64,000 bases of DNA from an uncultured Lachnospiraceae bacterium. Lineage in GTDB: Bacteria > Bacillota > Clostridia > Lachnospirales > Lachnospiraceae. Below the pieces are notes generated by a model, which did not search any database, was not told where the DNA came from, and was given only the letters and a program-made list of their open reading frames with translations. The DNA is taken from assembly GCA_944381515.1 (NCBI GenBank), contig CALWLM010000022.1, positions 1-64,000 on the forward strand, read 5' to 3'. Position numbers and translations under genes: made by a program. Below are positions 3,270-44,559 of the stretch, piece by piece (position 1 is the stretch's first letter; every line of letters begins with the position of its first letter).

Positions 3270-4538
3270 TTACATTCCCCACACAAACCAGGTAAACAGA
3301 TATCCGGCCACCACGGCGGTCAGGGTAAAGGGTACGCCGACCCGCAGGAAATCTGAATTCTTCACCTCATAACCGGCCTTGCGCAGGATACCGATACCGG
3401 TAATATTGGCAGAAGCGCCTACCGGCGTCAGATTTCCTCCCAGCGTAGCTCCGGTGAGCAGGCCGAAATACAAAACGTAAGGCTCCACGCCCATCATGCC
3501 CGCCATTCCCTGTACCACGGGAAGCATCGTGGCCACATAGGGGATATTGTCGATAAAGGCGGAGAAAAACACGCTGGCCCAGACGATCAGCGTATAGGCC
3601 AAAAACAGATTATCGCCGCTGATCTTTACAAAGATGCCGGCCACCGCATCGATGACGCCTGCTTCGGTAATTCCTCCGATTATAATAAACAGACCGAACA
3701 GCAGAAGCAGAGTGGTATAATCGATATCTTTGATGGGTCTAAATACCTTCTTAATATCACGGGTGCGCAGATACGTATAGACAAGTCCCACCACCATCAG
3801 TCCCATGCAGATCAGTCCATTGGTGATCGAGGGCTTGTTGGGGATAAAGGAAGCGCAGATCAGCAGAACCACCGTTCCCACCAGCAATATGGTCGGCACA
3901 TAGTCCGTCACCTTCGCCCGCTCCGACACGCTCACGCTGCCGGTCTCCTTGCGAAACAGCCAAAGCAGAACGATGGCCGACAGCACAGCTCCCAGCTCCA
4001 CTGCCCAGAAAATACCCGGTTTCCCCTGAAACCAGAAGAAATCCAGAAAATCCATTCTCGCATAACCGCCCAGCAGAATCGAAGTGGTATCGCCCACCAG
4101 CGTGGCCGCTCCCTGCAGATTGGAGGAGACAGCGATGGAAATAATCACCGGCACGGGATTGATTTTAAGCCGTTCCGACACAGCCAGCGCCACCGGCGCT
4201 ACCATCAGCACAGTGGCCACATTGTCCACAAAGGCGGATACGATTCCGGCAAACAAAGCCAAAAACACCACCGCCCATTTCACATTCGGCGTACGCTCCA
4301 AAATCAGATCCGCCAGCAGCGAGGGCATATTCGAGTCAATAAAGAGAGACACGATTCCCATAGTCCCCGCAATCATCATCAGCACATTAAAATCCACAGC
4401 TCCCAGCACATCGCCCACAGGCAAAATACCGAGAAGAACAAAAAGCGCCGCAGAAATCAGCGCCACCCAGGCTCTCTTATCGGACAGAGCCAAAAGTCCC
4501 ACATAAGTAAGGATAAACAAAATCAATGCCAGTATCAT
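3270..4538 (-). CDS. ArsB/NhaD-superfamily anion/cation permease
   Basis: A 422-residue integral membrane protein with about ten to twelve hydrophobic segments. It fits the ion-transporter (IT) superfamily, ArsB/NhaD/SLC13-like branch: two inverted halves each carry a family signature, SAFVDNVATVLMVAPVALAV near residue 105 and SAFIDNIPYVATMLPV near residue 335, and each half has a polar hairpin loop (NLQGAATLVGDTTS; GGNLTPVGASANITG). Family members move arsenite, Na+/H+ or organic anions; the substrate cannot be read from sequence. Length is typical. The start has GAAAGGGAACG upstream. It has its own promoter-like sequence and sits downstream of hflX on the same strand, separated by about 200 bases, so it is probably a single-gene unit. 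Confidence 0.85.
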   Translation of the reverse strand: MILALILFILTYVGLLALSDKRAWVALISAALFVLLGILPVGDVLGAVDFNVLMMIAGTMGIVSLFIDSNMPSLLADLILERTPNVKWAVVFLALFAGIVSAFVDNVATVLMVAPVALAVSERLKINPVPVIISIAVSSNLQGAATLVGDTTSILLGGYARMDFLDFFWFQGKPGIFWAVELGAVLSAIVLLWLFRKETGSVSVSERAKVTDYVPTILLVGTVVLLICASFIPNKPSITNGLICMGLMVVGLVYTYLRTRDIKKVFRPIKDIDYTTLLLLFGLFIIIGGITEAGVIDAVAGIFVKISGDNLFLAYTLIVWASVFFSAFIDNIPYVATMLPVVQGMAGMMGVEPYVLYFGLLTGATLGGNLTPVGASANITGIGILRKAGYEVKNSDFLRVGVPFTLTAVVAGYLFTWFVWGM

Positions 4539-4736: not shown

Positions 4737-5972
4737 CTATACACGGTCAATAAACTCGATGGGAATATATCCCGTCACCGCCACTCCTTCATCCAGATAT
4801 TCTTCGCTGCAAAGCTGTCCGTATTTGCGGAAATACTGAGCCTTCCCCGCATCCCGATAGAGATAAAATCTTTCCACGTAGATTTTTCGCTGCCGCAGAA
4901 TATCCGAGAGCAGCTGGGATATATCCGGCAGCCCCTCTCCGGTGGCGGCGGAAATCCTGAGCGTATAGTCCGCCTGCAAATCCCGAATGTTCCGGTCGCA
5001 GCCAGGTCGGTCGCATTTATTAAACAGCGTCACCACCGTCTTGTCCGTGACCTCCAGGCTGCGCAGCGTCTCATAAACCACATGCATCTGCACATCCGCC
5101 TGCGGATTGGAGCAGTCCACCACGTGAAGAATGATGTCCGCATACCTGGCCTCCTCCAGCGTGCTCTTAAACGCCTCAATCAAATGATGGGGCAGCTTGC
5201 GGATAAAGCCGACCGTATCCGTCAGCAGTATGGACTCTCCCCCAGGCAGGGCGAGACTGCGGGTTGTGGGGTCCAGCGTTGCAAAAAGCTTATCCTCCGA
5301 CAAAACAGCCGCCCCTGTTAACGCGTTTAAAAGAGTGGATTTGCCCGCATTGGTATAGCCGACTATGGCGGCCACCGGCATATGATTGTTTTTTCGTTTC
5401 TGCCTCGTCACCGTGCGGTGGCGCTCAATGTCCTTCAGCTCCCCTTTCAGCCAGGAAATTCTCTCATGGATTCGCCGGCGGTCCACCTCCAGCTTGGTCT
5501 CGCCCGGTCCTCTGGTGCCGATGCCTCCGCCCAGTCGGGACAGCGACTCTCGCAGCCCTACCAGCCGGGCTGCCCGGTATTTCAGCTGCGCCAGCTCCAC
5601 CTGAATCTTCCCTTCTCTGGTAGTGGCCCTGGCCGCAAAGATGTCCAGAATCACCAGCGTTCTGTCCATCACCTTAACCTCCAGCATGGCTTCCAGGTTG
5701 CGAAGCTGAATCGGAGAAAGTTCATCGTCACAGATAATACCGGTGGCCTCGGTCTCCCAGATTTTGTCCTTGACCTCCTCAATCTTGCCCTTGCCAAGAT
5801 AGGTACCCGGGTCCGGCTGTTCTCTGTTTTGGATCACGCGTCCCACCGTCTCGGCTCCGGCCGTACCGGCCAGCTGCTCCAGCTCGTCGAGGCATTGCCG
5901 GGCGTCGTCCCCATCTGCCAGCTGCACCCCCACCAGGATCACTCTCTCCTTTGCCTGTTTTGTATCATACAT
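4737..5972 (-). CDS. hflX: GTPase HflX
   Basis: A 411-residue ribosome-associated GTPase that can split stalled 70S ribosomes. The N-terminal HflX domain ends in the family signature GGGIGTRGPGETKLEVDRRR. A coiled stretch follows, then the G domain: G1 GYTNAGKST, G3 DTVGFIRKLP, G4 NKCD. The frame is open 20 codons upstream of the chosen ATG, but only the ATG at 5972 has a site (GAGGTGAAAGG), and the upstream extension would run through a terminator hairpin (5990-6038), so the shorter form is preferred. Length is normal for the family. It is the last gene of the minus-strand group dut, TPR lipoprotein, hflX. Confidence 0.95.
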   Translation of the reverse strand: MYDTKQAKERVILVGVQLADGDDARQCLDELEQLAGTAGAETVGRVIQNREQPDPGTYLGKGKIEEVKDKIWETEATGIICDDELSPIQLRNLEAMLEVKVMDRTLVILDIFAARATTREGKIQVELAQLKYRAARLVGLRESLSRLGGGIGTRGPGETKLEVDRRRIHERISWLKGELKDIERHRTVTRQKRKNNHMPVAAIVGYTNAGKSTLLNALTGAAVLSEDKLFATLDPTTRSLALPGGESILLTDTVGFIRKLPHHLIEAFKSTLEEARYADIILHVVDCSNPQADVQMHVVYETLRSLEVTDKTVVTLFNKCDRPGCDRNIRDLQADYTLRISAATGEGLPDISQLLSDILRQRKIYVERFYLYRDAGKAQYFRKYGQLCSEEYLDEGVAVTGYIPIEFIDRV

Positions 5973-5989
5973 ACCTTTCACCTCTGCGC

Positions 5990-6038
5990 AAAAATCGAAA
6001 AAGGGACATGCTGCGGCGCATGGCGCCGGCACATCCCC
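5990..6038 (-). terminator. Terminator-like hairpin just upstream of hflX
   Basis: On the minus strand a GC-rich hairpin (inner stem CGGCGC/GCGCCG with outer GGG/CCC pairing, 6003-6038) is followed by TTTTTCGATTTTT (complement of 5990-6002). It ends only 17 bases before the hflX ATG and leaves no room for a promoter after it, so hflX must be transcribed through it or from a promoter inside or before it. Confidence 0.75.
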
Positions 6039-6055
6039 ATTCTGTCATTTGGTTT

Positions 6056-7207
6056 CTATCTGGTTCGCAGGAAAGCCATTTCCTTATCCAGCGCATCGCT
6101 GGTGCCATAAAGAGCCACATAGGACTCAAAGCTGGCAAGAGCTTCGGAGAACCGATCCAGCCGCTCATAGCACAGCGCCTGCATATAAAGCATCTCCCGC
6201 CGGTAGCTTCCTCCATCCAGCGCAAGGCCCTTGCCCAGATAATCCAGGGACTCTTCGTATTCCTCCATACTGAACATGCACATACCCATCTGATAATACA
6301 CGTCGGGATTCTCTCCCCCCTGCTCCAATGCCTGGGAGAGAGCCGCAGCACAGCTCTCGCTGTCGCCCTGAGCCTGATAGCACAGACCAATATAAATCAA
6401 AGTTTCCACATCCGCACTGTCCCGCACATACTCAAATTCTGCTAAAGCAGTGCTGTAATCTCCCAGCAGGAAATGGATCATTCCCCTGTATTTATGAGAG
6501 TCCGCCGTGTTATCCGCAATCGTCAGCGCATTCTGCAAATACTGCACGCCCGTATCCGTCTGCCCGGCTGCCGCCAGACGGTAATAGCAGTTCAGATACA
6601 GACTATAATCGGTGGGAGAAAGTTTCACCGCCTGATCCAGGTCCGCCGTACCGGCTTCGATGTCTCCTCCTCCTATTTTGGCCGCTCCCCGCAGATAATA
6701 TAACTGGGATTCTTCCCCTTTTGTTTCCAGAAGCACCGTGTAGGTCTCAATGGCGCCCTCGTAGTCGCCCCCGCGCATCTGCGTCTCGCCCCGATACAAA
6801 AGGATGTCATACTCTGCCTCGCTGACCCGGCCCGACTCACAGGCCAGGGCTGCATTGAACGCGCCTACGGCCTCGTCATATTTCTCCGCCTCCATGTAGG
6901 CAATGCCCTTACCCCGATAAGCGCTCTGGCAGCTCCCATCCAGGCGCAAGGCGCTGTCAAAGCAGCTTTGGGCGCTGTCATAATCCTCCAGCTCCAGATA
7001 GGCCATACCCTGATTGACATAATAATCCGGGTTCTGATTATCCGCCACAATGGCATTGGCAAAGGAATCCACCGCCTGGGAATAATCTCCGTTTGCATAG
7101 TTCGAAAGCCCCGCCTCATTATAGCTTCCCGCCTCCGAACCGCAGGCAGACATAAGCCAAACGCCTGCGCTGACCGCCGCCAGGGCTATCCATCTGCGAA
7201 TTCTCAT
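6056..7207 (-). CDS. TPR-repeat lipoprotein
   Basis: A 383-residue exported protein. Residues 1-22 form a lipoprotein signal (RR start, hydrophobic core, lipobox LMSAC). The remainder is a run of about nine tetratricopeptide repeats, shown by recurring patterns such as GLSNYANGDYSQAVDSFANA, GMAYLELEDYDSAQSCFDSA and GIAYMEAEKYDEAVGAFNAA. TPR lipoproteins act as protein-interaction scaffolds on the outer face of the membrane; the partner is not evident. It starts 14 bases after dut with a good site (AAGGAGGGCC) and is followed by a strong terminator before hflX, so dut and this gene probably share a transcript. Confidence 0.85.
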   Translation of the reverse strand: MRIRRWIALAAVSAGVWLMSACGSEAGSYNEAGLSNYANGDYSQAVDSFANAIVADNQNPDYYVNQGMAYLELEDYDSAQSCFDSALRLDGSCQSAYRGKGIAYMEAEKYDEAVGAFNAALACESGRVSEAEYDILLYRGETQMRGGDYEGAIETYTVLLETKGEESQLYYLRGAAKIGGGDIEAGTADLDQAVKLSPTDYSLYLNCYYRLAAAGQTDTGVQYLQNALTIADNTADSHKYRGMIHFLLGDYSTALAEFEYVRDSADVETLIYIGLCYQAQGDSESCAAALSQALEQGGENPDVYYQMGMCMFSMEEYEESLDYLGKGLALDGGSYRREMLYMQALCYERLDRFSEALASFESYVALYGTSDALDKEMAFLRTR

Positions 7208-30310: not shown

Positions 30311-31009
30311 TCACCCCTGCGGATTCGCCTCAAAACGGTATCCTACCCGGGGGACCGTCTGGATATAACGAGGCTCCGACGGATTCTTTTCTATCTTTTT
30401 GCGCAGGTTTCTCACATGAGAAAAGACAGTGCGCAAATCGCCGCAGCTGGGTTTCTTCCAGATATAATGATAGATCTCCTCAAAGCCCAGCACCGTACCC
30501 TGATGGTTCCAAAAATATACCAAAAGTTCAAATTCCGTGGGTGATAAGGCGATTCTTTCGTCTTCCCGCATAAGGGCATGTTCTTTCATGGATAGCACAA
30601 AAGGCCCAAAAGAGATATCCTCCGCCAAAGGGGCGCCTCCCATATTCATCCTTCTCAAAACAGCCTCCATGTGGGCCTGCAGCACCGGATAGCGGAAGGG
30701 CTTGGTCAGATAATCGTCACCGCCCATCCGCATGGCCCGGACGATGGTTTCCTCATCGTCCAGGCAGCTGATAAAAATAATCGGACAATACAAAGTTTTG
30801 CGAAGCTGGACGCAAATATCGATTCCATCTATTCCTGGCAGCATAATATCCAGCAAAATCAGGTCAAAGCTCTGCTGGCGCACCGCCTCATAAGCCTCGG
30901 CCGCATCATGAGCCACCACCGTGGAATAGTCGCCGATTTTATTCAGGTAATGCAGCAGGATATCACAGTTTTCCCGGTCATCCTCCACCAAAAGCACTCT
31001 GTATTGCAT
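30311..31009 (-). CDS. OmpR-family response regulator
   Basis: A 232-residue two-component regulator. The receiver domain (1-120) has the acidic pair VEDD, the phospho-acceptor Asp in LILLDIMLPG (residue 54), and Lys in YLTKPF. The winged-helix DNA-binding domain (about 135-230) has LSPTEFELLVYFWNH and ends VGYRFEANPQG. It is the last gene of the group kinase, flavoprotein, regulator on the minus strand, 80 bases after the flavoprotein. Two perfect 11-bp direct repeats before the flavoprotein gene (33250-33271) fit the binding pattern of this regulator class. A terminator follows. Confidence 0.93.
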   Translation of the reverse strand: MQYRVLLVEDDRENCDILLHYLNKIGDYSTVVAHDAAEAYEAVRQQSFDLILLDIMLPGIDGIDICVQLRKTLYCPIIFISCLDDEETIVRAMRMGGDDYLTKPFRYPVLQAHMEAVLRRMNMGGAPLAEDISFGPFVLSMKEHALMREDERIALSPTEFELLVYFWNHQGTVLGFEEIYHYIWKKPSCGDLRTVFSHVRNLRKKIEKNPSEPRYIQTVPRVGYRFEANPQG

Positions 31010-31089
31010 CTCTCTTCTCCGCCTTCTTTCCCCGCCTTCTTCTGTCCGGCCCCAAAAGCTTCCAGCTTACGCTTTTCGTTCGCCTTATT

Positions 31090-33120
31090 TTATTCCAGGG
31101 CCGCTGCATGAGCGCCGGCAATCCGGCCGGAGGTAAAGGCATAACCCTGAGCCACGCCGCCGTAATTGGTATAGCCCTTGGTATTCGTAAACAAAACGCC
31201 CATGGAATCCGTTCCCACCGCGTAGAGTCCCTCGATCACCTCGCCGCTTTCATCCAGCACCTGCATATCCGCATTTACGTCTAAACCGCCGCAGGTACTG
31301 TAAATATAAGGAGCTCCCGTTACCGCAATGTAATACTCGCTCTCCAGTCCCACAGCTCCCAGACGTTCAAAATACTCCGCCGGCTTGCCAAACTCATCCT
31401 CTCCGCCGGCCGCCGCCGCATCGTACTGCTCGATGGAAGCCGTCACATTGGCCAGATCCATCTTCTCATTGCCGATGGCCTCCACCAGACCCTCCAGCGT
31501 ATCCGCCTTGTAAATAAAGCCTCTCTCGATTCCATCCTCCAGGACAGCGTCAATATTGGCAAGAGGAGTGTCCGCCGTCACGCCGCCCTGACTCAGATAC
31601 CGCCCGCTGGCGTTCATGGAGAAGCCCTGCTCTCTCAGGATATCGATCTGCTCAGCCGACAAAATCGTATAATATTTTGCCCCATTGTTAAAGGCGTTCA
31701 TGGCAATGGTATTCTCCGCCAGGAAACGGCTTCCGGTCTGATCCACAGCCATGACCTCGCCGGAGCAGACAAGACCGTAGGGAATATCATTATCCATGGG
31801 GTCCTCAAAACTGGTGGTAATCATGTAAGGCGCTACAAAATGGGACATGGGAGGCATATCGATATTATATACAGCAGCCCCTGTATCCAGGGCCATCTGG
31901 ATGCCCGCCCCGTCATTTTGAGCCATGCCATAGAGTCTCCAGGCTTCTCCCAGATACTCCTCCTGCATCTGGCTGCTGCCGCCGAAGCCGCCGGTGGCCA
32001 GAATCACCGCGTCTGCATGAATGGTAACCTGGGTGCCGTCCTGCTTAACTGCCTTTACCCCGGTCACGCGGCCATCTTCCACAATCAGCTCCGTGCCTTC
32101 GGTCTCCAGCATATATTGACCGTTCCATTCCTTTTCATAGGCTTCATAGGCATTGGCAAAGAACTGCTCCGTCAGCTCCTTGCCGCCGGAATAGGAGGCA
32201 AAAATACCCCATTTTCCGCCGACAAAACCTTTGGCCGGCTCAAATTCAAAGCCATAGGAGGTAAGCCAGTCCAGTGTTTCGCCAGATTCATCGATCAGCT
32301 CCCGGATTATATCCGTCTTGGCATGCTGGACGCCGTCCACCGTAGTGTAGCTGGTCCAGTCCTCATAGAGAGCCTCCCCGTCTACCAGCTCCTCGCCGGC
32401 TTCCTTGACACGGGTCTCTCCGGAGATGGGATCAGCCCACTCTTCATATTCCGCTTCCACCTGGCTGGGAGCATTGACCGTCATCGGGCCGGAGGTTATG
32501 GCGCTGGTGCCGCCCCATTTGCCCGCCTTATCAATGGCCATGACGGAAGCTCCATTTTCTGCCGCGCTCAGTGCCGCCGCCGTACCGGAACCGCCCATTC
32601 CTACCACAGCTACGTCCACCGTATACTCCTCCGTCTCTGTGGACTGCTCTAAGGGCGTCTGCATCAGGGACAGATCTGCTCCTGCCTGCTCCAGGCAGTC
32701 GCTGACGGCGCTTCGCACAGCCATGGAGGTTGAGGTTGCTCCGGTGACCGCATCTACTGCCAGCGTCTGGTTTTCAATGATTCGGGGAATCATATATTTC
32801 TCCACCATCTGAGGCATGCCATTCGTCTCCCCGTTTTCTCCAATGGCAATCGATACGATCTGATTATCCTGAATCTCCACCGTAACCTGTACCATCTGGG
32901 TCAGATTAAAGCCCCTGGCCTCAGCCTCGTAGGTGCCGTCCTTCATGACAAGTCCTTCTTCGGTCTCCGTCTGGACGTCTGTCTGGGACTGCGTTTCCGT
33001 CTGGGCGCCGGTCTGCTCTGCCGCCGTTGTCCCGTCGGCCGTTCCCGGATTTCCAGAACAGCCGGCGAGCAGCATAGCTGCCGCCAGAAGGGCTGCTCCC
33101 GCTCTCATTCCTTTTTTCAT
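31090..33120 (-). CDS. Exported FMN/FAD flavoprotein reductase (fumarate/urocanate reductase-like)
   Basis: A 676-residue lipoprotein: residues 1-21 form a signal with lipobox LLAGC, followed by a Thr/Glu-rich linker. An FMN-binding domain (about 55-135) has DAVTGATSTS, the DxxTGAT motif where ApbE links FMN to Thr. The FAD-binding-2 domain starts at VDVAVVGMGGSGTAAALSAA (Rossmann) and continues with GGTSAITSG and VILATGGFGG, ending IYSTCGGLDVN and GLYAVGTDSMGVLF. This is the layout of extracytosolic flavin reductases that pass electrons to fumarate, urocanate or enoates; the acceptor is unknown. The start at 33120 has GGAGG; the frame opens 13 codons earlier. It lies between kinase and regulator genes. 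Confidence 0.9.
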   Translation of the reverse strand: MKKGMRAGAALLAAAMLLAGCSGNPGTADGTTAAEQTGAQTETQSQTDVQTETEEGLVMKDGTYEAEARGFNLTQMVQVTVEIQDNQIVSIAIGENGETNGMPQMVEKYMIPRIIENQTLAVDAVTGATSTSMAVRSAVSDCLEQAGADLSLMQTPLEQSTETEEYTVDVAVVGMGGSGTAAALSAAENGASVMAIDKAGKWGGTSAITSGPMTVNAPSQVEAEYEEWADPISGETRVKEAGEELVDGEALYEDWTSYTTVDGVQHAKTDIIRELIDESGETLDWLTSYGFEFEPAKGFVGGKWGIFASYSGGKELTEQFFANAYEAYEKEWNGQYMLETEGTELIVEDGRVTGVKAVKQDGTQVTIHADAVILATGGFGGSSQMQEEYLGEAWRLYGMAQNDGAGIQMALDTGAAVYNIDMPPMSHFVAPYMITTSFEDPMDNDIPYGLVCSGEVMAVDQTGSRFLAENTIAMNAFNNGAKYYTILSAEQIDILREQGFSMNASGRYLSQGGVTADTPLANIDAVLEDGIERGFIYKADTLEGLVEAIGNEKMDLANVTASIEQYDAAAAGGEDEFGKPAEYFERLGAVGLESEYYIAVTGAPYIYSTCGGLDVNADMQVLDESGEVIEGLYAVGTDSMGVLFTNTKGYTNYGGVAQGYAFTSGRIAGAHAAALE

Positions 33121-33223
33121 TCTGTCTTCCTCCTTTTTATCTCCGGCAATCCCCGGCATTTTGCGCCTTTTCTTTGCGCAGCCGTTATTTCCTTTTCCCG
33201 GCCCGGGGACTTCCGTTGTGAAT

Positions 33224-33271
33224 AGTATATCACAGCCGGCTGAGAAGACCGTTGAAATTTCGTTGAAATTT
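33224..33271 (-). promoter_or_regulatory. Promoter with tandem 11-bp direct repeats before the flavoprotein gene
   Basis: On the minus strand AAATTTCAACG occurs twice with no gap (33261-33271, then 33250-33260), directly after the kinase stop codon. Twenty bases on lies TATACT (33224-33229). The hexamer 17 bases before it (ACGGTC) is a poor -35, partly inside the second repeat. A poor -35 overlapped by 11-bp-phased direct repeats is the usual design of promoters activated by OmpR-family regulators, and such a regulator is encoded two genes on. Confidence 0.75.
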
Positions 33272-35230
33272 TCACATCGTTTCCTGTTCCCCTGCTTTTA
33301 TCTCTTCTGAGAAAAGGGGCAGCTCGATTCGCATCAATGTTCCCCCGCCCGGCGCATCCTCTGCCTCCAGACTGCCGCCATGCAATTCCAGCAGGGAATG
33401 ACAGATCGACAGGCCCAGGCCCGTCTTTCCGCCGTCTCCTTTGCTCTCATAGCGGACAAACAGCCGCTTCTTTTGTTCCTCACGGATTCCGGGACCCTGA
33501 TCCTGCACAGTCACGGTGCATCGGTTCTCCTCCGTCCGCTGATCTATGCGGATTCGGCCGTTTTGGGGACTGTAGCGGACCGCATTATCCAGGATATTGT
33601 CAAAAACCTGCTTCAGACGGAACCGGTCGCCCTCCAGATAACACGAATCCGTCTCCGTCTCAACTTCCACGCAGAGCTCCTTTGCCTTTCCCTCCGCCTC
33701 CGCCTCCGCATCCTCCCCTACCGTTCGGAGAAGCTCGCAGATATCAAAAACCGTTTTTTCCAGCTTCAGTCTCCCGTCCTCCAGCCGGTATATCAGAAAC
33801 ATATCGTCCGTAATTTTGCCGATATACTCCGCCTTGCGGTCCAGCGTATCCAGGTATCTCTTCTGCTCCTTGGTCGGCTGGGGCAATGCGTCCCGCAAAA
33901 GATCCAGATAGCCCTCGATGGCAAAAAGCGGACTGCGCAGATTATGGACCATATCCGTCATAAAGCGCTGGCGGTTGTCCTGTATGCGCATCAGCTCCTC
34001 GTTGGCACGGCGCAGCTCATCTGTCTGCCTGCGCACCTGCCTCTCCAGATTGACCGACAAAAGATCGGCCTCACGGAACTTTTTGCCATACTTCATGCAG
34101 GTGGCCAGAGCAAAGGCCACAATATAGGCAAACCGCATATATTGGGCCGGCATGATCTCAATATCCACTACTCCCTGGGGAATAAAGCCTCCGTACAGCA
34201 AAAGATAAAACAGTTCGTTTCCAAACGCCAGCATACAGCCGGTCAGAATCACCGGCGCCTCCGGCATCTTTTTCAAAACGCCGGTTCCCAGAATCCATGC
34301 CTGCAAAGCCATATAAAAAAAGTAGGACGTCTGAATCCAGCGGTTGCTGTACTCCGGCCAGAAGAGGCAGCCCAGGGCCGTCATCGCCGCGGCCGCCGGT
34401 ACGGCCCGGTTCATCCAGGGCATCGCCGTCCCCGGCACAAGCTGACGGCAGACATAGTAGTTAATAAACCCCAGCTGCCGGTAGAAAACCGTAGACCCCA
34501 GATGAAAAAAGGACATGGCCGGATGGCGGGGAATCAGCAGGAAATGAGCCAGCTCTGCCAGGGTAGATGCGGCCAGCAGCAGCAGATAACCTTCACTTCT
34601 CTTTGGAAGGTACAGGGCCAGACACATAAGAATCAGCATCCCGCACAGTCCCACTGCAATCATATCCAGTATCATCCAGCGATTCTGAATTTCCCGCAGC
34701 TCGGCCTGATTTCCCAGAATCATCCCCTGATACACGTCGTAAATGGAGGAATTGGTTACCTGAAGAACCACCTCTATCCTGGTCTGCTCCGTATAATCGA
34801 CAATCCGATAGATCTCTCCGGCAGAAAGCCCGCCCTCCTCTCCGGCCACCTCCCTCCCGTCGAGCCAGAGGCGGCTGCCATGGGGACGGGGAAGCAAAAA
34901 ATACCAATCTTCTCCCTCTCCGATTTCCAGGCAAAAAGTATAAGTATAGCCGCGCATTTTGCGAATATACTGGATGTCTTCCACCTCCGTGCCCGGGCAG
35001 CCTTCCAAGTCCCCTGGCTCCAGGGCTCCGTCAAACCGGAGCCATCTGCCGGTCAGAATAAAAGGCCCGCTCTCAGCCCGCAGATTCCGCGCCTCAATCC
35101 GCCCGTCCTGTACGGCGAGCACCGGCGTATGAAAATTAAGCCATCCAAAAATTACCACTACAAAAAGCGGGATGCCGGCAAGCAACGCCAGTATCCCGCT
35201 CTGTCTTCTTTGTCTTTTTTCTCTTTCCAT
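33272..35230 (-). CDS. Membrane sensor histidine kinase (7TM-DISM-like)
   Basis: A 652-residue kinase. One N-terminal membrane segment (about 13-31), an extracytosolic domain of about 150 residues (sandwich-like, ending SSIYDVYQGMILGNQAELRE), then six or seven membrane segments (about 185-390) and a coiled coil (READLLSVNLERQVRRQTDE). The H-box is MTDMVHNLRSPLFAIEGYLD near residue 425. The ATPase has N-box FDNILDNAVRYSPQNG, G1 QDQGPGI and G2 GLGLSICHSLLELHGG. The build matches the 7TMR-DISM receptors, which may bind small extracellular ligands. The partner is the regulator at 30311. It starts 72 bases after icd. Confidence 0.92.
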   Translation of the reverse strand: MEREKRQRRQSGILALLAGIPLFVVVIFGWLNFHTPVLAVQDGRIEARNLRAESGPFILTGRWLRFDGALEPGDLEGCPGTEVEDIQYIRKMRGYTYTFCLEIGEGEDWYFLLPRPHGSRLWLDGREVAGEEGGLSAGEIYRIVDYTEQTRIEVVLQVTNSSIYDVYQGMILGNQAELREIQNRWMILDMIAVGLCGMLILMCLALYLPKRSEGYLLLLAASTLAELAHFLLIPRHPAMSFFHLGSTVFYRQLGFINYYVCRQLVPGTAMPWMNRAVPAAAAMTALGCLFWPEYSNRWIQTSYFFYMALQAWILGTGVLKKMPEAPVILTGCMLAFGNELFYLLLYGGFIPQGVVDIEIMPAQYMRFAYIVAFALATCMKYGKKFREADLLSVNLERQVRRQTDELRRANEELMRIQDNRQRFMTDMVHNLRSPLFAIEGYLDLLRDALPQPTKEQKRYLDTLDRKAEYIGKITDDMFLIYRLEDGRLKLEKTVFDICELLRTVGEDAEAEAEGKAKELCVEVETETDSCYLEGDRFRLKQVFDNILDNAVRYSPQNGRIRIDQRTEENRCTVTVQDQGPGIREEQKKRLFVRYESKGDGGKTGLGLSICHSLLELHGGSLEAEDAPGGGTLMRIELPLFSEEIKAGEQETM

Positions 35231-43940: not shown

Positions 43941-44459
43941 TTACTGAGCCGAAGCCTGGGACAGGCAGTCCTGCACGGCTTCAATAACGGCTTCGCTGGT
44001 AATCGTCGCACCGGATACAATGTCCACATCCGCAGACTGTGCCTCCAGGATAGCCTCCTGCAGCTGCTCTGCCGCCTCCACGCCAATGCCGGCCGTCTCA
44101 TTGGAAGCGTCAATGGTCACATCGCTGATAGCGCCGCTCTCATCGATCGTTACGGTCACCGTCAGCTCGCCCATGCCGGTGGCTGTAGCCGTATAAGTGC
44201 CTGCCGTGTAAGATCCGGCAGCCTCGCCTCCCGCCGTCTCCTCTTCCTGGGTTTCACCGGCTGTGGTTGCAGGCTCCTCCGTCTCGGCCTCGGTAACTGC
44301 TTCCGTTTCTGCCTCCGTAGCTGCCTCCGTAGTCGCTGCCTCTGTCTCAGCGGCAGTAGTAGCCGCTGCCGTAGTCTCTGTAGTTCCAGACGAGCATCCG
44401 GCCAGCGCCAAAACGCAGACAGCCGCCAGCGCTGCGGAAGCAAATCTTCTAATCTTCAT
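43941..44459 (-). CDS. FMN-binding domain lipoprotein
   Basis: A 172-residue lipoprotein. Residues 1-22 form the signal (lipobox LALAGC). A long Thr/Glu/Ala-rich linker (23-80) is made of short repeats such as TEAATEAATEAE. The C-terminal FMN-binding domain (about 85-170) has GELTVTVTIDESGAISDVTI and DIVSGATITSEAV, the DxxSGAT motif where ApbE attaches FMN to Thr. It would act as an extracytosolic electron carrier tethered to the membrane. The start at 44459 has GGAGG upstream. It is a single gene. It may supply electrons to reductases such as the flavoprotein at 31090, which is inference. Confidence 0.9.
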   Translation of the reverse strand: MKIRRFASAALAAVCVLALAGCSSGTTETTAAATTAAETEAATTEAATEAETEAVTEAETEEPATTAGETQEEETAGGEAAGSYTAGTYTATATGMGELTVTVTIDESGAISDVTIDASNETAGIGVEAAEQLQEAILEAQSADVDIVSGATITSEAVIEAVQDCLSQASAQ

Positions 44460-44559
44460 GTCGTCAATTCCTCCTCTTTTAGATAATGAAAATAAATTAT
44501 GAAAAGCCTTCAAGGGCTTGTGTAGAATATAGCATAAAAATCTTATATTGACCATACAT

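Follow-up and report, generated by a model that had tools for sequence, protein, structure and literature searches.

A putative operator ahead of an exported flavin reductase gene flanked by two-component genes in a Lachnospiraceae genus

The locus studied here raises two questions: whether an exported flavin reductase of an uncultured Lachnospiraceae bacterium is controlled by the two-component genes that lie on either side of it, and what compound the enzyme might reduce. We analysed a stretch of 64 kb (the window) of the host genome (G000, 2.9 Mb in 167 contigs), whose closest named relatives are Lachnospiraceae metagenome assemblies. A two-component switch for a reductase is already known in kind, as TorSR, TtrSR and DcuSR are two-component systems controlling terminal reductases. 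Our limited literature search found no publication on an operon like the present one, which does not imply its absence from print, and the reductase arsenals of gut bacteria are reportedly the subject of one main published study.

The locus and its sensor kinase

The gene order, repeats and promoter reported at 30311-35230 in an initial annotation made from the sequence alone were all confirmed. The ORFs for a histidine kinase, an exported FMN/FAD lipoprotein and an OmpR-type regulator follow one another in this transcription order, all on the minus strand, and their Pfam domains agree with these assignments. The features are:

33272-35230, minus strand: membrane sensor histidine kinase, 652 aa (HisKA at residues 420-486, HATPase_c at 534-639)
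34709-35128, minus strand: kinase residues about 35-174, predicted to form an extracytoplasmic beta-rich domain (AlphaFold model, Foldseek)
34061-34708, minus strand: kinase residues about 175-390, predicted to form a helical membrane bundle (model; sub-threshold 7TMR-DISM_7TM match)
33250-33271, minus strand: putative regulator box, two tandem copies of AAATTTCAACG with the core TTTCAAC-N4-TTTCAAC (repeat and conservation)
33224-33232, minus strand: extended -10 TGATATACT, no -35 (TGnTATAnT in six of six loci)
31090-33159, minus strand: exported flavoprotein ORF, likely start at 33120 (lipobox LAGC, FMN_bind, FAD_binding_2)
32734-32745, minus strand: flavinylation motif TGAT, residues 139-142, within FMN_bind (sequence, homologue alignment)
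30311-31009, minus strand: response regulator of the OmpR/PhoB type (232 aa), encoded after the flavoprotein (Response_reg and Trans_reg_C)

The regulator carries both domains expected of the OmpR/PhoB type above their cut-offs (PF00072, 87.8 bits; PF00486, 80.9 bits), and its DNA-binding half is nearly invariant in five species. A search for the kinase in 145 genomes (E ≤ 1e-60) found it in six, the host genome counted, all from one genus, and the flavoprotein (E ≤ 1e-150) occurs in the same six of the seven genomes of that genus. Wider searches found nothing beyond the host genome, neither for the kinase among 392 genomes of the order (E ≤ 1e-45) nor for the flavoprotein among 391 genomes of the class (E ≤ 1e-140). 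We compared the window with the loci of five relatives (L039, L041, L042, L043 and L050). The window and the first four of these share the order kinase, flavoprotein, regulator; L050 has the kinase and the flavoprotein, and its stretch ends ahead of the possible regulator position.

Residues 1-402 of the window kinase match no Pfam family above its cut-off. An AlphaFold model of moderate confidence built from six sequences predicts a beta-rich outer domain followed by a helical bundle, with a mean pLDDT of 65.9 over the 403-residue sensor half. The initial annotation had called this sensor 7TM-DISM-like, a description that stands in part: the predicted succession of outer beta-rich domain, helical membrane bundle and cytoplasmic histidine kinase resembles that of 7TMR-DISM sensor kinases, and the Pfam model 7TMR-DISM_7TM (PF07695) is matched over nearly its full length, but its score is below the cut-off of 29 both in the window (9.5 bits) and in L042 (16.2 bits), and no match is reported for the L041 kinase. 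Structural matches of the bundle reach Z 11.9 to 12.9 (best VIA-align Z 12.9, rmsd 4.7, 209 aligned residues), values said to be usual for helical bundles, and we drew no conclusion on family from them. A Foldseek search with the sensor model returned no match at E ≤ 0.001. The sensor half is matched by no other protein of the host genome, where 21 further hits to the kinase all start at residue 318 or later.

In L041 an isocitrate dehydrogenase gene ends 9 bp ahead of the kinase, and in L043 a different ORF overlaps the kinase start; both layouts fit a kinase that would be expressed together with its upstream neighbour. Like TorSR, TtrSR and DcuSR, the locus combines a sensor kinase and a regulator with a respiratory-type reductase; unlike in these systems, the sensor is a beta domain with a helical bundle in the model, and the enzyme is a flavin lipoprotein. 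The initial annotation supposed that the kinase senses the extracellular electron acceptor, and it may do so. The three genes stand together in five of five fully readable loci, and the only second box seen in the genus (described below) precedes another exported gene of ene-reductase type. A serious alternative, to which we would still give less than an even chance, is that the kinase responds to a cue other than the substrate, such as a glycan, the redox state or the state of the envelope, with an outer domain that may be a beta-sandwich of sugar-binding type. This would accord with the weak Foldseek matches of the outer domain, among which are GH2 glycosidases (the best of them at E 0.043).

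The tandem box and its promoter

Directly after the TGA of the kinase, identical 11-mers occupy 33250-33260 and 33261-33271, and they form the only perfect tandem 11-mer of the window. Mononucleotide shuffling of the 300 bp ahead of the flavoprotein ORF, repeated 20000 times, never produced a perfect tandem 11-mer, and this 22-mer with up to three mismatches is expected 0.00 times per window. Since a lone 11-mer is no rarity when one mismatch is tolerated (1.18 expected versus 2 found per window), the signal resides in the tandem pair. The initial annotation had suggested a search for such pairs in the rest of the genome; across the 2.9 Mb, TTTCAACG-N3-TTTCAACG occurs exactly once, has no copies at one or two mismatches and 17 at three, a reversed control pattern giving nine matches.

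The promoter had been described as having a good -10 and a poor -35. The -35 part holds, with at most two of six matches to TTGACA at spacers of 16-18 (by eye, in the window), and the -10 part needs amending: the hexamer TATACT at 33229-33224 is preceded by a TG at 33232-33231 that had been overlooked and that makes it an extended -10. A consensus promoter scan in which a -35 was obligatory did not include this promoter among its results. A Rex/CRP-like palindrome noticed by eye near the -10 is absent from the other loci and was dropped.

Absence of the repeats from orthologous loci would have spoken against an operator, and the opposite was found: each of the six loci from the genus has TTTCAAC-N4-TTTCAAC once in its stretch, on the coding strand. 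When 350 bp surrounding the box were aligned with MAFFT, 19 of the 22 box columns were identical in all six loci versus 26 of the 216 other gap-free columns outside the -10, some of these 26 falling in the ribosome-binding site and in codons of the signal peptide. The distance from box to -10 is constant throughout, and TGnTATAnT is likewise found in every locus, with the TG one base ahead of the hexamer in each copy; the -10 is a perfect TGATATAAT in L041, L042, L043 and L050 and the weaker TATACT in the window and L039. The kinase stops ahead of the box in the window, L039, L041 and L050. In L042 and L043 its frame traverses the box, each in another frame, and the L042 stop codon overlaps the -10. 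Protein coding does not explain the conservation of the box, because L042 and L043 read it in two different frames; as the same bases are kept whether they are protein-coding in either frame or non-coding, the box is a DNA signal. The conservation of the neighbourhood is in part shared ancestry, since the six species belong to one genus.

The spaced pattern together with the -10 was also searched in 397 genomes of the family, where the three exact matches all come from this genus (G000, G005 and G006). Three matches with two mismatches outside the genus (L067-L069) were taken as chance, the reversed control pattern having given four. This draw of genomes was without G001, G003 and G004, and the box search was therefore repeated on all seven genomes of the genus: at up to two mismatches, five have one place, G001 has two and G002 has none. 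The first place in G001 contains an overlapping third half-site, and its half-sites at 3354-3384 were counted as one place.

Tandem half-sites with an 11-bp period are a known arrangement in the OmpR family, WalR recognizing a box of the CiaR type. The geometry of the present box is that of the CiaR consensus, NTTAAG-N5-TTTAAG (PMC4938410). Unlike for CiaR and WalR, the half-site is TTTCAAC, and five of the six kinase-bearing genomes have a single place, with two in G001 (within two mismatches). A box near the -35 is in the usual activating position for OmpR/PhoB-type regulators, and activation of the reductase gene by the linked regulator is plausible. Alternatively, the regulator may be a repressor whose box covers the -35 region of the extended -10 promoter until a signal relieves repression. 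The box, at about -54 to -33, does overlap the -35 position, and it could serve repression because an extended -10 promoter, here perfect in four of the six loci, needs no activator. We regard this reading as rather unlikely, given the usual activating position just mentioned, the weaker -10 of the window and L039, and a regulator gene lying downstream of the controlled promoter, an arrangement that suits positive feedback.

The flavoprotein and its active site

As judged from the sequence, the likeliest start of the flavoprotein is 33120 (MKKGMRAG, behind AAGGAGG) rather than 33159. Its reading frame carries a lipobox, LAGC, and the segment VTGATSTS at residue 138, in which T142 is invariant among 16 homologues. 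This segment belongs to the TGAT motif class, [S/T]GA[S/T], of flavinylated FMN_bind proteins, and the same source describes flavinylated extracytosolic fumarate-reductase-like enzymes that combine FMN_bind with FAD_binding_2, among them Listeria FrdA and Shewanella UrdA (PMC8238504). The window enzyme has the features of this class, namely an export signal, an FMN_bind domain with the motif, and FAD_binding_2, and it probably carries covalent FMN. Further likenesses are ApbE elsewhere in the genome and the many paralogues per genome; unlike FrdA and UrdA, it has its own two-component genes in front and behind, and its Arg/His/Arg residues are replaced (see below). A separate small FMN_bind protein (PF04205, 60.8 bits) is encoded at 43944-44465 of the window, minus strand, and in one relative an ApbE (FMN transferase) gene lies close behind the regulator on the opposite strand (L043:7838-8917).

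The best solved-structure matches of the flavoprotein are UrdA and Fcc3, and we take His504 and Arg544 of Fcc3 to be the numbers that match 520 and 560 of UrdA. UrdA holds the substrate carboxylate with Arg411, His520 and Arg560, variants at either arginine (Arg411, Arg560) have no activity, and Arg411 is the counterpart of the Fcc3 proton donor Arg401/402, according to PMC7921117. We aligned a profile of 16 homologues to Fcc3-type structures; a structure model of the flavoprotein was set aside (mean pLDDT 43.2), and the active-site assignments rest on this alignment. At Fcc3 R402, H504 and R544 the window enzyme has C465, S621 and N665. The orthologue in L042 has Ala at the first of these carboxylate-binding positions, and in those of L039 and L043 the second is occupied by Gly. 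As an internal positive control in the same alignment, the paralogue L089 keeps Arg/His/Arg and L077 keeps the last two.

The initial annotation had proposed to assay fumarate, urocanate, cinnamates and similar acceptors. These are now disfavoured and make poor first guesses, because all are acids and the Arg/His/Arg set is lost; an alternative mode of carboxylate binding is possible. That the enzyme is nonetheless a conventional reductase of fumarate, urocanate or cinnamate, as its fold family and its matches to UrdA and Fcc3 could suggest, seems to us improbable in view of the C/S/N replacements, which a paralogue aligned alongside does not have, and of a score of 126 bits versus a cut-off of 285 with the NCBIfam flavocytochrome c model. 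The best NCBIfam model is that of the vinyl phenol reductase VprA (NF053717), with 179.8 bits over the FAD part, a likeness that is far under the curated cut-off of 600.

Controls, a second box and the proposed circuit

Two controls lack both the pair and the box. In G002, of the same genus and 84% complete, we found no kinase (E ≤ 1e-60), no flavoprotein (E ≤ 1e-150) and no box within two mismatches. L040, from a contig labelled Christensenellaceae, encodes an 81% identical flavoprotein at 5019-7043 among unrelated genes, with no match to the kinase or the regulator in its 12 kb and, within 600 bp upstream of that gene, a best box match that has four mismatches out of 14; either the enzyme gene was transferred alone or this is a binning error.

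The second place in G001 (one mismatch; L042:5578-6025) comes after the regulator gene and a hairpin that by eye looks like a terminator, and TGATATAAT follows it one base nearer than usual. The gene after it, cut by the contig end, has a twin-arginine signal (PF10518, 29.5 bits) and, by eye, a lipobox; over the N-terminal 114 aa its product matches longer proteins encoded by relatives (44% identity to L131). These have Oxidored_FMN and Pyr_redox_2 domains, and their best models, far below cut-off, are bilirubin reductase, mycofactocin-associated OYE and BaiCD. As these relatives are OYE-type, the sole extra site would precede another exported enzyme of a C=C-reducing family. This second target is a single case from one genome with an incomplete gene, and it stays tentative. 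The homologues L129-L131 have no box upstream (best five to six mismatches of 14), and the host genome has no homologue of the exported OYE-type gene at E ≤ 1e-6.

The initial annotation had read the phased repeats as the operator of the linked OmpR-type regulator, and the box is now well supported as such a putative operator ahead of the reductase gene by its presence in six of six loci and its absence from G002 and L040. Binding of another regulator, with the neighbouring pair acting elsewhere, is very unlikely: 21 other places of the host genome resemble the catalytic part of the kinase, so that further regulators are at hand, but box, kinase and flavoprotein are jointly present or missing in seven of seven genomes of the genus, the box is nearly unique per genome, and the L040 flavoprotein is without the box as well as without the pair.

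As a full circuit, we think it reasonably probable that the locus works as a local two-component switch dedicated to a single flavin reductase of the cell surface. An upstream promoter would drive the kinase gene, probably together with the preceding gene, and a signal on the external side of the membrane would lead the kinase to phosphorylate the OmpR-type regulator. The phosphorylated regulator would bind its two TTTCAAC half-sites 11 bp apart and assist RNA polymerase at the extended -10 promoter that has no -35. Because the box lies behind the kinase and ahead of the flavoprotein and regulator genes, presumably one operon, the regulator would control its own gene and not that of the kinase; as the regulator gene follows that of the reductase, both products would rise in a positive feedback while the kinase would not. 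The lipoprotein reductase, with its probable covalent FMN and its FAD domain, would deliver electrons to an unsaturated compound, probably one not bound via a carboxylate. The operator reading is thus much strengthened and the suggested substrates should change; activation and acceptor sensing are hypotheses.

The host genome has 59 FAD_binding_2 matches, 28 of which cover at least 270 of 414 positions. We surveyed the neighbours in 30 of its regions and one of G004, scanning 30 selected ORFs, one of them from G004. Among the scanned ORFs of the host genome, LysR regulators lie near at least six FAD_binding_2 genes, MerR near at least five, and TetR and a PucR-type helix-turn-helix near at least one each; OmpR-type pairs stand near two such genes besides that of the window, and the remaining scanned neighbours are unrelated. 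A scan for exact 7-base repeats with a period of 10 or 11 found none upstream of L090, a two-component-linked paralogue, or of L083 and L073, and a 10-bp repeat upstream of L074. At L075:15930-19994 (G000 C116) a flavoprotein gene lies beside a convergent OmpR-type pair whose kinase has a DUF4118 sensor, its upstream region being beyond the contig end.

The genome has two ApbE genes, one of them next to an Rnf-like cluster. RNF clusters with a multi-flavinylated RnfG are described in PMC8238504. The cluster, at L103 (G000 C75:18000-34000), encodes RnfC, RnfD, ApbE and two proteins that each contain three FMN_bind domains; where RnfE and RnfA would be expected, two ORFs have no Pfam match and are perhaps in wrong frames. 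It is a plausible candidate electron source for extracellular reductases.

More speculatively, and with only a modest chance of being right, the lineage-specific sensor might detect a non-carboxylate unsaturated gut compound (steroid-, tetrapyrrole- or plant-phenol-like) and induce the surface reductase and, in at least one species, a second exported enzyme of OYE or bilirubin-reductase type under the same box. In that case, compounds of a class so far not known to serve as acceptors would be respired under the control of a sensor. Genomes such as this one encode dozens of flavin reductases of unassigned substrate, and here one member of a large arsenal appears to have a dedicated switch. A clean putative operator with a dedicated sensor offers a handle, as the inducing compound would point to the substrate, and the missing carboxylate-binding residues suggest that a screen for inducers should not begin with fumarate, urocanate and cinnamates.
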